DNA from: Algoriphagus sp. CAU 1675
Lineage (GTDB): Bacteria > Bacteroidota > Bacteroidia > Cytophagales > Cyclobacteriaceae
NCBI RefSeq assembly: GCF_029222925.1
Contig: NZ_JARHUI010000002.1
Location: 1 to 64,000, forward strand
Direction of reading: 5' to 3'
DNA: 64,000 nt
Part shown: in pieces, positions 44,648 to 50,251 of the stretch
Position numbering within the stretch: position 1 is the first letter of the stretch
How the letters are laid out: every line of letters starts with the position of its first letter
The notes under the pieces: generated by a model
Database searches by the model: none
What the model saw: the letters and a program-made list of their open reading frames with translations, nothing else
What the model was told of the DNA's origin: nothing
Position numbers and translations under genes: made by a program

Positions 44648-44663
44648 TCACATAAACATGTGA
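44648..44663. promoter_or_regulatory. Palindrome site A, TCACAT-N4-ATGTGA (perfect)
   Basis: The first of four copies. It lies in the divergent region between the lipoprotein gene and the sensor kinase, ending 57 bp before the kinase ATG. Probably an operator of the NarL-type regulator encoded at 47786 (inference from co-location). Confidence 0.7.
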
Positions 44664-44720
44664 TTATGAGACAAAAGATCGTGGCTTTCAGAGCGATTCA
44701 CTTATTTTTAGCAGCTGAAA

Positions 44721-47717
44721 ATGATTAAGAAACTCCTGCTTTCCGTTTTATTGTTTCTCTCCGTTCTCACTTTGCTGGCGGAAAGGAGAAAGTATTTTGT
44801 AACCCATTTTGGGACCGAGCAGGGAATGGCCTCTGATCAGATTTTTACACTTTTCAGGGATGATTCTGGATACTTATGGATAGGGACGGTGAATGGACTG
44901 CAGCGCTTTGACGGCAGGTCCTTCATGACCTATCAGATTAAAAGCCCAGAACTCCAACCCAGCAAACCAGTCATGGAAATCCTTAAGGATCTGGAGGGGA
45001 CACTATGGCTAAAAGTTGGAGATGACTATGGATATTATCAGCCGGAACTGGAACTCTTTACTCCTATTCCTTTTGAAAAAGAAGAAAACCGCTTTTTGGG
45101 TGAGCAATTGTGGATGGACAGCAAGGGAAATCTTTTTGTAATTCTCACCAACACCAAGCTTCTGTGGATAGACCAGAAAAACAATAGAATTACTGACCAG
45201 AATCTTCCGGTTCAGATCCCGGATGGATGGAGACCCCGGTCTCTATTTGAAGATAAAAATGGACTCTATTGGATAAGCTGTGTAGAAGGGGTTGCGGTTT
45301 TTGACCCAAGCACTTCCGAAATTTTCACACATCAAAACAATCCAAGAAACCTGGAGGTCCTGAAAAACCAAGACCTCGGGCATGTTATAAATACTATTAT
45401 TGATTCAAAAGGAATTTTTTGGATTAACTACTGGGCTCCGAATGAAAAGCTTGTTTCCTATAATCCACAGACCAATACCTGGAAAGAGCACCAGCAAGAC
45501 TTGGCGAATACTAATTCCAACTACCAGGAGATATTTGGAAGCTTGGAGTTGCCGAATGGCGAACTATGGAGGTATGGAGTCCAGGCTTTTGCAAAACTGA
45601 ACCGGGAAGCGCATCGGTTTGAGGTATTTGAACAGAGCAGTGTAAAATATGACTTGATATCAAAGTTGGTTTATGATCCCTCCGGAGGGCTCTGGGCAGG
45701 AACAGACAGGGGCTTGTATTTCCTTCATTTTGACACACCCAGTATGTATTTCATGGAGCTTTCTACCGAGAATGGAAATTATGAATTCCAGGCTTTGGAA
45801 GAGGTCATTTACCAAGGGGACACTACTTTTTGGCTTGGAAGCTGGGGAAAAGGAATCCAAATCTTTAAAAGCGGATTCCAAACGGTTAATCTCCCTTGGT
45901 TGTATACTACTTCTCCCGGTACAATTGAATCCAAACAAGTATGGGACATTCATTTTGATCCAAAAAGATCTTTGGTCTGGGTGGGACTTCAAAAAGGTCT
46001 GCTTCAGATCATTGATCTTCAAACCAATACTTCCAAATTCATCAAGCCTCCTCTATTCGAAAACTCTACCATTTTGACTATCACCCAAATGGAAAATGGA
46101 GATTTATGGTTTGGCACACAAAGTGGAAGAGTGCTTCGGTACCGTCGGGAAGGATTGGATGAAAATGGATTTGAAATTGTCCGAAGGTTCGATGCACATG
46201 TTCCGAAAATCATCGTCAGTCAGGATCAAAAAATCTGGGTCACCACTTCAGATGAAGGAGTCTATATGCTGGATCCCGAAACCGGGGATATAAACAGGCA
46301 TCTAGACAAGAATCAGCTTAGTTCCAACAAAATGGAAGGTATCCTCCAAGTCAATGACAGCCTTTTTATGATGGGCTTTGAATTGCTCAACAAGTACAAT
46401 GTGAATACCGGTGAAAACGAGGTTTTTTCCTATTCCAATGGCTTGCTGAGCAATAATATTTTTGATATGGAGGTGGATAAAGAAGGCATGGTCTGGGTCT
46501 ATACCCCAAATGGACTAACCAGATTTGACCCTATTTCCAATACCTTTACATCGTTTGGTAAAAACCATATTTTCTCCCATCTGCCCAAAGACGGAAGAAC
46601 CGGAAAAAGATTTTCAAATGGACAGCTGGCCTTTGTGAGCTCCAATGGAATGATCATTTTCGATCCTCTTCAGTTTGACAAAAACCTCCCTCCTCTTACT
46701 CCAACCATAACCAATGTGGAATTATTTGGGGTGTATGTAGGAGATGGCACTTCGGAAAATCCCCTGCAATCCTTCAAATCCCATCAGAACAGTCTGAATT
46801 TTGATTTCAATATCCTAAATTTTTCGCTTCAGGACAGATTCCGCTATCAATACCGGCTTGTAGGGGCCGATCCAGATTGGGTGGAGGCTAAAGGCGAATT
46901 TCGGGCTGTTTATTCACTTTTACCTCCCGGGGAATACCGATTTGAGGTAAGAAGTTACAATGAATCCGGAGTCTTTTCTGAGGCCGCCAGCTATCCTTTT
47001 GAAATCAAGCCCAGCCTTATTCAAACCTGGTGGTTTAAGGCTTTAATGGGTTTGCTGTTTCTGAGCATCATTCTTTTAATCTATAAAATGAATGTCAACC
47101 GGATTCTGGCTGTGGTCAAGCTCCGAAGCAGGTTGGCAAGAGACCTTCATGACGACATGGGATCTACCCTGAGTACCATCAATATTCTTAGCTCCATGGC
47201 TAAAACTAAAATCGGAACCGATCCTGCCAAGTCCAGTGAATATATTTCCAAGATTTCAGAAAACTCCCAACGAATGATGGAATCCATGGATGACATTGTA
47301 TGGAGTATCAAGCCCCAAAATGACACCATGGAAAAGCTCATTGCCAGAATGAGGGAATTTGCCAATCAAGTATTGGAGAGTAAAGGCATTGAGTTTTCTA
47401 TGGAAATCAATGAAAAAGTGCTTGGCATGAAGCTCAGCATGGATGCCAGAAGAGACCTTTTTTTGATTTTCAAGGAGGGTATCAACAATGCCGCAAAGTA
47501 TTCCAAAGCAGAGCGGGTATTGATTTTGTTTTCATTGGATAAAACCAGCTTTACAATGCAGATCAAGGACAACGGAAAAGGTTTTGATTCCGAGAACAAT
47601 CATGAGGGCAATGGGCTTCAAAACATGAAAAAACGGGCAGCGAGCCTTGAAGGAACAATGTACATCTACTCTAAACCCGGAAAAGGAACCGAGTTGATTT
47701 TAACCATTCCTCTGTAA
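44721..47717 (+). CDS. Two-component regulator-propeller sensor histidine kinase
   Basis: A 998-residue membrane protein: signal peptide (1-20), about 14 propeller-type repeats forming a large periplasmic sensor (for example GTEQGMASDQIFTLFRDDSGYLWIGT, LWFGTQSG, EGMVWVYTPNGL), a Y_Y_Y domain before the membrane (FRYQYRLVGADPDW, PPGEYRFEV), one transmembrane helix near 775-795, then the NarL-class dimerisation domain with His810 (ARDLHDDMGSTLS) and an HATPase with N922-N923 and D950-N-GKG. No receiver is fused. Such kinases often sense carbohydrates in Bacteroidota, but this one has no polysaccharide genes beside it. Its partner regulator follows. Confidence 0.94.
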   Translation: MIKKLLLSVLLFLSVLTLLAERRKYFVTHFGTEQGMASDQIFTLFRDDSGYLWIGTVNGLQRFDGRSFMTYQIKSPELQPSKPVMEILKDLEGTLWLKVGDDYGYYQPELELFTPIPFEKEENRFLGEQLWMDSKGNLFVILTNTKLLWIDQKNNRITDQNLPVQIPDGWRPRSLFEDKNGLYWISCVEGVAVFDPSTSEIFTHQNNPRNLEVLKNQDLGHVINTIIDSKGIFWINYWAPNEKLVSYNPQTNTWKEHQQDLANTNSNYQEIFGSLELPNGELWRYGVQAFAKLNREAHRFEVFEQSSVKYDLISKLVYDPSGGLWAGTDRGLYFLHFDTPSMYFMELSTENGNYEFQALEEVIYQGDTTFWLGSWGKGIQIFKSGFQTVNLPWLYTTSPGTIESKQVWDIHFDPKRSLVWVGLQKGLLQIIDLQTNTSKFIKPPLFENSTILTITQMENGDLWFGTQSGRVLRYRREGLDENGFEIVRRFDAHVPKIIVSQDQKIWVTTSDEGVYMLDPETGDINRHLDKNQLSSNKMEGILQVNDSLFMMGFELLNKYNVNTGENEVFSYSNGLLSNNIFDMEVDKEGMVWVYTPNGLTRFDPISNTFTSFGKNHIFSHLPKDGRTGKRFSNGQLAFVSSNGMIIFDPLQFDKNLPPLTPTITNVELFGVYVGDGTSENPLQSFKSHQNSLNFDFNILNFSLQDRFRYQYRLVGADPDWVEAKGEFRAVYSLLPPGEYRFEVRSYNESGVFSEAASYPFEIKPSLIQTWWFKALMGLLFLSIILLIYKMNVNRILAVVKLRSRLARDLHDDMGSTLSTINILSSMAKTKIGTDPAKSSEYISKISENSQRMMESMDDIVWSIKPQNDTMEKLIARMREFANQVLESKGIEFSMEINEKVLGMKLSMDARRDLFLIFKEGINNAAKYSKAERVLILFSLDKTSFTMQIKDNGKGFDSENNHEGNGLQNMKKRAASLEGTMYIYSKPGKGTELILTIPL

Positions 47718-47718
47718 T

Positions 47719-47734
47719 CCACATATTTATGTGA
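47719..47734. promoter_or_regulatory. Palindrome site B, CCACAT-N4-ATGTGA (one mismatch)
   Basis: It lies just after the kinase stop and 51 bp before the regulator ATG at 47786. A -7-like TATCTTTA begins at 47758, so the site centre falls about 31 bp upstream of it, close to a typical activator position. Confidence 0.7.
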
Positions 47735-47785
47735 TTGAATTGGGATAGAACAAGAGGTATCTTTACCAAGATTTTTAGATTCTCT

Positions 47786-48418
47786 ATGATTAAGCTACTG
47801 ATATACGAAGACAATCCACAACTGAGAGAAGGTTTGACCATGTTGATTGACGGCAGTGAGGGTTTCAGCGTATTGGCGGCTTTTAAAAACTGTTCGAATG
47901 TAGCCAACGAGATAAAAACCTACCAACCGGATGTCATATTGATGGATATAGACATGCCCGGTGTCAATGGATTGCAGGGATTAAAGATCATCCGTGAAAC
48001 CAACACGGAAGTCAAAATATTGATGCTCACCGTTTTTGATGATCACCAGAATATTTTTGAAGCCTTGCAAAATGGGGCAAACGGATATATTCTCAAGAAG
48101 ACACCTCCTGCCAAACTATTGGAATACATAGAGGAAGCCTCGACAGGCGGAGCTCCAATGACTGCCTCCGTTGCTACCCAGGTTTTAAAAATGTTTGCCC
48201 AGCTAAATCTTCCATCAGACAAGGACTATAATCTTTCCGAAAGAGAAAAAGAGGTGCTTCAATGGTTGGTCAAAGGCTATTCCTACAAAATGATCGCAGC
48301 AGAAATGTTCATTGCCATGGACACCGTCAGAAGCCATATCAAAAAAATCTACGAAAAGCTTCATGTCAACTCAAAAAGTGAGGCAGTTGCCAAAGCTTTT
48401 CGAGACAAAATTGTTTAG
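47786..48418 (+). CDS. NarL/FixJ-family response regulator (LuxR-type HTH)
   Basis: 210 residues from the ATG at 47786 (MIKLLIYEDNPQL); the open frame starts earlier at 47735 inside palindrome site B, which is unlikely. Receiver domain with phosphorylatable D54 (ILMDIDMPG) and K104; C-terminal LuxR-type HTH with SEREKEVLQWLVKGYSYKMIA and DTVRSHIKKIYEKLHV. It is the cognate regulator of the upstream propeller kinase by position. The palindromes around it are likely its targets, including its own promoter. Confidence 0.94.
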   Translation: MIKLLIYEDNPQLREGLTMLIDGSEGFSVLAAFKNCSNVANEIKTYQPDVILMDIDMPGVNGLQGLKIIRETNTEVKILMLTVFDDHQNIFEALQNGANGYILKKTPPAKLLEYIEEASTGGAPMTASVATQVLKMFAQLNLPSDKDYNLSEREKEVLQWLVKGYSYKMIAAEMFIAMDTVRSHIKKIYEKLHVNSKSEAVAKAFRDKIV

Positions 48419-48434
48419 TGTTGAACTTTTTGCA

Positions 48435-48460
48435 AGCCGCCCAAGGGTGGCTTTTTTTTA
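48435..48460 (+). terminator. Terminator after the NarL-type regulator
   Basis: Stem AGCCGCC/GGTGGCT with loop CAAG (48435-48452) followed by a long T-run. Confidence 0.88.
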
Positions 48461-48500
48461 TTACATCCTCTTCTTCCCAAAATTCGCAACTCACTATTTT

Positions 48501-48516
48501 TCACATATTTATGCGA
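48501..48516. promoter_or_regulatory. Palindrome site C, TCACAT-N4-ATGCGA (one mismatch)
   Basis: It ends 57 bp before the ATG of the small exported-peptide gene, exactly the same distance as site A from the kinase ATG. A CAAATTTG (-7-like) begins at 48540, giving the same 31-bp spacing as at site B. Confidence 0.65.
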
Positions 48517-48573
48517 TTTCAAGATCCGGCCAACACTCGCAAATTTGTACTGTACAAAATGTGAAATACCTAC

Positions 48574-48744
48574 ATGAAAGCCTTCCTGAAAATTACCTTG
48601 ATTTTATGGGGATTGACCTTTTCGGTGAACTATTCCAAACCAAAAAGTCAAAGCACTTACACTCGGGTTGACCTAAAAAGTGACTTTAAAATCACACAAA
48701 CATGTGATCCCTTGTCCATGATCGGGAAAGATCAACTTTCGTAA
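48574..48744 (+). CDS. Putative exported small peptide, 56 residues
   Basis: A short frame with a good signal-peptide-like N-terminus: positively charged start (MKAFLK), a hydrophobic core ITLILWGLTFSV and a polar remainder of about 35 residues (YTRVDLKSDFKITQTCDPLS). It has one cysteine and no recognised domain. Its start lies 57 bp behind palindrome site C, matching the spacing at the kinase gene, which is the main reason to believe it. Palindrome site D overlaps its 3' half. It could be a non-coding leader instead. Confidence 0.45.
   Translation: MKAFLKITLILWGLTFSVNYSKPKSQSTYTRVDLKSDFKITQTCDPLSMIGKDQLS
48692..48707. promoter_or_regulatory. Palindrome site D, TCACAC-N4-ATGTGA (one mismatch)
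   Basis: It lies inside the 3' part of the small peptide frame and 103 bp before the sigma-factor ATG at 48811, so it could control the sigma factor, or be a second site on the peptide gene. Confidence 0.6.
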
Positions 48745-48810
48745 TAATAGCTATCAACCAAAGGCCCTTTTTGAAAATGAAACCAACTACTACCCACAGA
48801 AAAACTAACC

Positions 48811-49402: not shown

Positions 49403-50251
49403 ATGAAGCCACCAATTAAAATCATTCATTTCCTGATTTTGGCCACTGCACTTACCCTGGTGGCCAACTTCATTCCGGCTTTATCAAGCGCAGGAAATAT
49501 TAAGTCCCTGGTAATCATGTGGACACCTGGTTTGGCAGCCTTGGTTGTCAGTCTAATTCACAAAAGATCGCTCCGGGAAATCGGCTGGGGATTCAGCTTG
49601 AAATGGATTGCTTTGGGCTGGATCATTCCTGTCACCTATGGTAGCATTTCCTATTTCATAATCTGGCTGACCGGTGTTGGAGAATTCCCAAATCCCACAT
49701 TTTTGGAAAGAGCCCAATTTACCATGGGCTTCGAAAGTGAAAATAGTGGCCTCGTCATACTGGCTGCATTTTTCTACATAACCCTGGTTAATTTGCTTCC
49801 TTCCATGTTTTTAGGGTTGGGCGAAGAGATCGGATGGAGAGGTTTTTTGGTCCCCGAACTTTTCAAAAGGGTAGACTTCAAGATGACGGCAATTATCAGC
49901 GGACTGATTTGGGCAATTTGGCACTTGCCCGGAATTATCCAAGGTGAATACGGTGAATCAAGCACCCCATTGGGGTATCGCTTGGTATGCTTTTTCCTAC
50001 TTGTTATTTCAGGCGCAATCATTTTGGCTTGGTTGAGGATTAAATCCGGAAGTATTTGGCCTGTAGCGGTTTTTCATGCCACACATAACGGGGTGATCCA
50101 AACCTTTTTTGACCGACTGACCAAGTATGAGGAGCTTACCCCTTACTTCGCCGGGGAGTTCGGAATAGTCGTTCCGCTTATAAGCATGGCAATTGCCCTT
50201 ATATTTTTAAAAAATTCAGGGACTTCTCTAGGCCTAAACGATAGAAAATAA
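49403..50251 (+). CDS. CPBP-family intramembrane metalloprotease-like protein
   Basis: A 282-residue protein with about eight membrane helices. The CPBP motifs are complete: EE141-142 and R146 in GEEIGWRGFL, H174 in AIWHLP, and H225/H228/N229 in VFHATHNG. These residues coordinate metal in Rce1-like and bacteriocin-processing proteases. The start is 7 bp after the sigma-factor stop, so they are probably co-transcribed, and the protease could act on an exported substrate such as the small peptide (speculative). Confidence 0.9.
   Translation: MKPPIKIIHFLILATALTLVANFIPALSSAGNIKSLVIMWTPGLAALVVSLIHKRSLREIGWGFSLKWIALGWIIPVTYGSISYFIIWLTGVGEFPNPTFLERAQFTMGFESENSGLVILAAFFYITLVNLLPSMFLGLGEEIGWRGFLVPELFKRVDFKMTAIISGLIWAIWHLPGIIQGEYGESSTPLGYRLVCFFLLVISGAIILAWLRIKSGSIWPVAVFHATHNGVIQTFFDRLTKYEELTPYFAGEFGIVVPLISMAIALIFLKNSGTSLGLNDRK

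Follow-up and report, generated by a model that had tools for sequence, protein, structure and literature searches.

Results

The locus and the four copies of the palindrome

The window analysed here is the whole stretch of 64,000 nucleotides at the start of contig NZ_JARHUI010000002.1 from Algoriphagus sp. CAU 1675 (Bacteroidota, Cyclobacteriaceae). In a 4-kb block of this window, the palindrome TCACAT-N4-ATGTGA occurs in four copies (sites A to D) around the genes of a propeller-type sensor kinase, a NarL-type response regulator, a small protein with a signal-peptide-like N-terminus and an extracytoplasmic function (ECF) sigma factor (Table 1). The comparisons described below suggest, with a probability of about 0.83, that the palindrome serves this NarL-type regulator as its activator operator; through it the regulator would raise the kinase gene and its own gene and drive the exported-peptide/ECF unit.

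Table 1. Genes, palindrome copies and putative control elements of the kinase/regulator locus (positions in the window).
Feature	Position	Strand	Remarks
Exported-looking protein gene, 504 aa	43040..44554	-	divergent from kinase; no Pfam/NCBIfam match
Site A	44648..44663	.	TCACATAAACATGTGA, 0 mismatches; putative operator 5' of kinase
Putative -7 box, kinase promoter	44703..44710	+	TATTTTTA, 39 nt past site A
Sensor kinase, 998 aa	44721..47717	+	Reg_prop, Y_Y_Y, HisKA_3, HATPase_c (Pfam)
Site B	47719..47734	.	CCACATATTTATGTGA, 1 mismatch; putative operator 5' of response regulator
Putative regulator promoter	47735..47765	+	TTG, -33-like (47735-47737); 20 bp; TATCTTTA, -7-like (47758-47765)
NarL-type response regulator, 210 aa	47786..48418	+	Response_reg, GerE; ATG at 47786
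Intrinsic-terminator-like hairpin and T run	48434..48459	+	after regulator gene; hairpin 48434-48453
Site C	48501..48516	.	TCACATATTTATGCGA, 1 mismatch; putative operator 5' of peptide/ECF unit
Putative -7 box, peptide/ECF unit	48540..48547	+	CAAATTTG, 23 nt past site C
Small protein, 56 aa	48574..48744	+	signal-peptide-like N-terminus; open reading frame
Site D	48692..48707	.	TCACACAAACATGTGA, 1 mismatch; within peptide frame, encodes ITQTCD
Conserved leader element	48752..48784	+	TATCAACCAAAGGCCCTTTTTGAAAATGAAACC; 5' of ECF gene
ECF sigma factor, 194 aa	48811..49395	+	regions 2 and 4 (Pfam)
CPBP/Rce1-like membrane protease	49403..50251	+	starts 7 bp after ECF gene

The coordinates and mismatch numbers (0/1/1/1) of the four sites were exactly those given in the original prediction, which had been made from the letters of the window, and its statement that the window holds no further copy was borne out at one mismatch or fewer. 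When two mismatches were allowed, eight matches were counted in the window against 3.37 expected, a number reached in none of 100 shuffles; the four matches other than A to D carry two mismatches each. In the complete genome (3.81 Mb), ten places match with at most one mismatch, four of them in this 4-kb block and six elsewhere, whereas a reversed control pattern matched five places, from which a chance expectation of about 0.005 per 4 kb was derived. The clustering of sites A to D is real and the remaining genome stays near the control level. The N4 centres pair up (AAAC in A and D, ATTT in B and C) and the base directly after each of the four copies is T.

Two distances reported in the prediction were also exact: the kinase and the peptide genes both start after 57 intervening bp, and the -7-like elements of sites B and C begin 31 bp from the site centre, that is 23 nt past the 16-mer. 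Sites A, B and C precede the kinase, regulator and peptide genes as had been proposed. Site D, which had been assigned to the sigma factor gene and, like the other three, to an intergenic or gene-end position, is located inside the 56-aa peptide frame.

Conservation of the proposed operator

A family search of 390 genomes provided 23 further kinase genes with 41-66% identity, after which identity dropped to 32%. In the 24 loci thus available, window included, a site was accepted with up to two mismatches, Y/R being permitted at its ends. Site A was present in 24 of the 24 loci, site B in 17 and a C-type site in 21, the one of L081 standing before another gene. Site D was found in 13 loci and is confined to the Algoriphagus-Cyclobacterium-Mariniradius clade, where 13 of 14 loci carry it.

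For distant relatives, the best 80 of 165 loci from the genome scan were retained and 58 of these were compared; removal of the Cyclobacteriaceae loci L154 and L184 left 56, in 48 of which the regulator gene could be placed. The homologs, from Arenibacter, Chitinophagaceae, Sphingobacteriia, Prolixibacteraceae and others, share about 33-37% identity for the kinase and 63-80% for the regulator. All 4096 six-base arms were then ranked, with no motif supplied, as arm-N4-reverse complement with at most two mismatches. In the 150 bp 5' of the regulator gene, the arm TCACAT came first of 4096 with 39 of the 48 loci, the median arm being at 0; on shuffled regulator-upstream sequence TCACAT scored 0 and the best other arm 6. 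The top two arms 5' of the kinase gene were CCACAT (29/56) and TCACAT (27/56). The operator consensus is YCACAT-AWWY-ATGTGAT. The original prediction of a local regulon is partly retained: the operator set is tied to the kinase/regulator pair, but it is not peculiar to this locus, since several families have it with targets that differ from one to another.

Position of the proposed operator relative to the promoter

In PMC7366714, Bacteroidota promoters are described with TAnnTTTG at -7 and TTTG around -33. The spacing between operator and -7 box was analysed in 33 representatives, one locus per genus or metagenome-assembled genome (MAG) group, with sites of at least 10/12 and -7 boxes of at least 5/6; as each palindrome was counted in both directions, 255 oriented sites were obtained. 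A -7 box lies exactly 23 nt past the 16-mer at 57 of them, in 26 of the 33 representatives, and at 39 nt in 12 cases, the other offsets having a mean of 2.15 boxes and a maximum of 9. With 60 scrambled decoys, offset 23 never held more than three boxes and no offset more than six. The binomial value for the 23-nt offset (4.5e-62) should be taken only as a guide, because the representatives share ancestry and the decoys had fewer sites.

When sites were listed by gene, keeping only those with a box at 23 or 39 nt and checking 23 first, all 54 regulator entries (53 loci) showed the 23-nt spacing and 23 of 28 kinase entries the 39-nt spacing, one of the latter (L154) lying inside the kinase gene. 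The 39-nt kinase entries from outside Cyclobacteriaceae include L165, L166, L187, L192 and L193. In the window, sites B and C are at 23 nt and site A at 39 nt. A strict composite pattern (operator, 23 nt, TAnnTTTG) proved uninformative, with four matches in 345 phylum genomes and one control match; in two Cyclobacteriaceae genomes lacking the regulator (G122, G178), composite matches lie before genes of about 500 codons (L198, L199).

A site next to the -33 element, compared with one 16 bp further upstream, recalls class-II versus class-I activation, and this resemblance is the reason for preferring activation over repression. The operator attributed to the regulator would accordingly occupy an activator-like position before both the kinase (39 nt) and the regulator (23 nt). 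For the positive autoregulation put forward in the original prediction, the distance to the -7 box is fixed and activator-like, and the sign is deduced from this architecture. The opposite sign, with the regulator acting as a repressor of its own genes, appears quite unlikely. Site B touches the -33-like TTG, 20 bp from the -7 box, and a protein bound there could block the polymerase; however, with the 23-nt spacing the site borders the -33 element on its upstream side and does not cover the -7 box, the kinase sites are 16 bp further upstream, and site C of the window has no TTG at -33, as expected of an activator-dependent promoter. In addition, the spacing is fixed over many genera, whereas a repressor would tolerate variable positions.

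Probable identity of the binding protein

The regulator contains a receiver domain (PF00072, 1.9e-26) followed by a GerE domain with a LuxR-type helix-turn-helix (HTH) (PF00196, 9.3e-20). By sequence, its best match of solved structure is NarL (1a04), and it scores 147.5 bits with the NCBIfam NarL equivalog, under the 250-bit cutoff. An exact 18-bp pattern was searched in the 24 genomes with a kinase ortholog and gave 72 matches (3.0 per genome, control 1); a manual count put 58 of them no more than 15 kb from the kinase, which leaves 14 (0.58 per genome) in other places. The 26 genomes of the same genera that lack the regulator (none above 49% identity, regulator matches being considered at E<=1e-45) yielded 19 matches (0.73 per genome, control 3). 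The matches outside the locus stay at the level of the genomes devoid of the system. The sequence CCACTYTTTGATGTGATT is found repeatedly, both in genomes that have the regulator and in genomes that lack it; in both loci read (L097:2145 and L099:1921) it falls within the gene of a 610-aa protein and is thus probably part of the coding sequence, not an operator.

Among more distant homologs, L092, whose regulator (49% identity) has a similar recognition helix, carries TCACCCAATCATGTGA before the regulator gene and TACTTTTA 22 nt later, and no site was found before the kinase or regulator of L090 and L093-L096, which have other helices. The co-occurrence of the palindrome with the system and the tendency of the sites to track the helix among these homologs make the NarL-type regulator the most likely binder.

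Another regulator, for example a Crp-like protein, could own the operator and the sites merely travel with the gene cluster. Proteins that look Crp-like by eye are encoded near the clusters in L156, L181, L190 and L112, the TCACA/TGTGA arms resemble CRP half-sites in opposite order, and some operator-like matches exist in regulator-free genomes. This explanation should nevertheless be considered very improbable. Of six window-region proteins searched in L139-L196 (tblastn, at least 60 bits), only the kinase and the regulator come up repeatedly (the ECF protein gave matches just in L154, L194 and L195, and no locus matched the window peptide); the pattern matches fall from 3.0 to 0.73 per genome when the regulator is absent; and the sites follow the regulator helix in most, though not all, of the distant homologs read. 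A set of chance palindromes or a functionless repeat family, for which only the near-control number of copies elsewhere (six against five) would speak, is ruled out by the four copies in 4 kb, site A in 24/24 loci, the first rank of 4096 and the single-offset spacing, the sequences flanking the copies being moreover dissimilar.

Several observations weigh against an activator operator owned by the NarL-type regulator. Site B was not found in seven of the 24 close loci at two mismatches or fewer, and site D fits neither promoter spacing. No box at 23 nt follows 198 of the 255 oriented sites, six of the 56 distant loci have no site with such a box, and the decoys held fewer sites (mean 54.8, maximum 176) than the 255 of the real motif. 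The composite pattern is absent from the four phylum genomes holding the regulator (E<=1e-70), and two of the 24 ortholog genomes (G016 and G136) have no in-locus match to the strict 18-bp pattern, looser sites being present. L088 and L089, whose regulators show 62% identity and a near-identical helix, have only degenerate candidate sites before the kinase. Finally, the regulator-free genomes exceed the reversed control (19 against 3) and some of their matches are operator-like (G033, G303, G354); the excess is partly due to two recurring sequences, CCACTTTTTGATGTGATT (four times) and TCACACTATAATGTGATT (three times).

The sites themselves, the way they are conserved, the pair of fixed spacings and the occurrence of the sites together with the regulator are all observed directly. 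From these we infer that a stimulated propeller-sensor kinase would give rise to a phosphorylated regulator dimer able to bind the operator and to activate the housekeeping RNA polymerase of Bacteroidota. Before the regulator gene, the peptide/ECF unit and most other targets, the operator adjoins the -33 region, with 23 nt between it and the -7 box, in a putative class-II-like arrangement, and at the kinase gene it stands 16 bp further upstream (39 nt), in a possibly class-I-like one. The system would in this manner raise its own two components and switch on the small exported protein/ECF sigma unit, and the ECF sigma factor would relay the signal onward.

The putative small exported protein and site D

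The possible exported peptide of the original prediction was supported by comparison as a small protein gene preceded by a site. The window peptide and 10 relatives have exactly 56 codons with no indels. The 56-aa frame is kept in 10 of the 14 close loci, the window being one of the 14; L072, L075 and L076 have an altered frame and L077 an extended end. Site D is retained in L072, L075 and L077 despite the changed frame or end and is lost in L076. The ratio of the proportions of nonsynonymous and synonymous differences (pN/pS) is 0.37 in the signal-like part, which is constrained, 0.87 in the nearly free middle and 1.15 in the tail.

In codons 39-45, which correspond to site D, pS is 0.09 compared with 0.52-0.73 in the other three segments, which means that site D is constrained as DNA. 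It is found 118-119 nt past the ATG in 13 of the 13 loci having it. A promoter 23 or 39 nt past site D was rejected, as no conserved -7 box is present. Indibacter (L136) and L101 have one site before the peptide gene and another between the peptide and ECF genes, and this second site does have a -7 box at 23 nt. The Algoriphagus site D may descend from the ECF site of such an arrangement; its own promoter is not recognisable.

Among offset-23 promoters without a large open reading frame (ORF), 34 of 80 precede a signal-like ORF of 40-100 aa, compared with 1.2% of 3000 random positions, the signal peptide being called by a simple hydropathy rule and not by a trained predictor. Of the 34, 15 come from Cyclobacteriaceae, where orthologs of the window peptide account for many, and the other 19 come from outside this family. 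Small, fast-evolving exported proteins recur as likely direct targets of the operator. The window peptide has no Pfam or NCBIfam match; of five of the 34 small proteins, taken from relatives, four have none above the NCBIfam cutoff and the fifth has no match either.

Inspection by eye indicated that small exported proteins of several distant loci, although unlike in the middle, share C-terminal endings. One set has W-[IVL]-L-x-x-x-[FL] (L152:15315-15494, L153 after 13902, L172 after 12877, L169:15011-15196) and another RFACW (L158 after 14737, L177:13863-14090, L183:8325-8552).

It is conceivable, though improbable, that the exported small proteins are fast-evolving signals or modulators of the propeller kinase, in an autocrine or self-limiting loop, or alternatively that they represent a novel class of mini-proteins for envelope stress. 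The 34 signal-like ORFs out of 80, the constrained signal part, the free middle and the fixed length count for a signalling role; the altered frames (3/14) and the extended end (1/14) beside an intact kinase, as well as the many direct targets in other families that are larger envelope proteins, count against it. Should such a loop exist, the kinase, the regulator and the peptide would all be raised by one operator in Gram-negative Bacteroidota.

The ECF sigma factor gene and the proposed wider regulon

The terminator-like hairpin 3' of the regulator gene implies that site C probably opens a new transcription unit. In the window, the operator could act on the ECF gene from site C through the peptide gene, or from site D, which has no recognised -7 box. 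At least eight other loci (L131, L132, L136, L137, L138, L194, L195 and L101) have the ECF gene after its own site with a -7 box at 23 nt. A link of the system to the ECF gene is supported by these loci, but not by site D as such, which lacks a box at 23 or 39 nt. No anti-sigma domain or gene was detected among the ECF gene neighbours scanned.

The leader element 5' of the ECF gene (TATCAACCAAnGnCCCTTTTTGAnAAT) is strongly conserved, and among the nine genomes searched its copies with at most one mismatch occur only at this locus, in four genomes. It was rejected as an ECF-dependent promoter because its copies elsewhere, searched at three mismatches in the nine genomes, are at control level (7 matches against 6) and close copies are restricted to the locus.

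Genes directly after the sites in other families code for an S41 peptidase (L190), DUF2807 proteins (L155, L156), a PF00144 serine hydrolase (L156) and a cytochrome c protein (L158).

Comparison with known systems

NarL/FixJ regulators paired with HisKA_3 kinases (NarXL, LiaSR, UhpBA, VraSR) have the same receiver and GerE HTH, the same HisKA_3/HATPase_c kinase part and, as proposed for the present regulator, a palindromic operator; they differ in the sensor, which here is a two-component propeller with a Y_Y_Y domain. NarL heptamers differ from the operator TCACAT-N4-ATGTGA. The kinase is below the cutoffs of all 24 NCBIfam models listed, and the regulator below those of the best 25 of 115. 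The hybrid two-component systems (HTCS) of Bacteroides polysaccharide loci also combine Reg_prop and Y_Y_Y in a periplasmic sensor with an AraC-type regulator in the same polypeptide, whereas the present kinase ends with HATPase_c at residue 998 and its LuxR-type regulator is separate.

CseBC-SigE of Streptomyces is a two-component system that turns on transcription of an ECF sigma gene; the ECF gene is under two-component control as proposed here, but the regulator is of OmpR type and the phylum is another. To our knowledge, no exported-peptide gene belongs to the CseBC-SigE unit. The nearest known system found in the phylum is PorXY-SigP of Porphyromonas gingivalis, for which PMC4800418 reports that sigP mRNA is down to 41% in a porX mutant, that PorX binds the SigP protein and not target upstream regions, and that PorX and PorY are encoded apart. 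Both are Bacteroidota two-component systems acting through an ECF sigma factor, and the difference is that in the present system the ECF gene appears to be controlled via an operator, by a regulator of NarL type that binds DNA.

Self-activating two-component systems, and ones acting via an ECF factor, are already known. The present system stands out by an operator grammar that is defined unusually well and by a branch of small proteins that is still unexplained. A literature search of titles and abstract starts yielded no account of this operator, of a propeller kinase with a NarL-type regulator or of ECF control in Algoriphagus, and few operators of LuxR-type regulators seem to be known in Bacteroidota. 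The operator, the two promoter spacings and the likely regulator could be fixed from sequence across several families; with such a fixed grammar, targets become predictable for each genome and can be tested with one reporter. Small exported proteins, which are easily overlooked in annotation, would be likely direct targets of a propeller-sensor system.

Neighbouring genes

Site A also faces the divergent 504-aa gene, homologs of which (43-45% identity) lie 5' of the kinase in four of the 23 close-relative loci. Operator use by this gene was discarded, as no -7 box at 23 nt was present in the two Cyclobacterium loci read. A homolog of the protease gene adjoins the ECF gene in only one of the 23 close-relative loci (L076).

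In at least eight distant loci, a gene for a 368-369-aa, probably membrane, protein with an HGYNL motif is located between kinase and regulator (L156:11068-12174, with equivalents in L152, L153, L155, L158, L171, L181 and L190). At L105:3569, L114:7503 and L184:13039, the operator lies 5' of the gene of an exported-looking 234-271-aa protein with an LLPxLEEMP motif, the L184 protein having no Pfam match. In a second Cyclobacteriaceae clade (L109:2157, L112:1954, L115:1787, L131:4395), a site a few kb 5' of the kinase adjoins a hemerythrin gene, assigned by Pfam in L131, and other neighbours of these sites look ApbE-like or Crp-like by eye.

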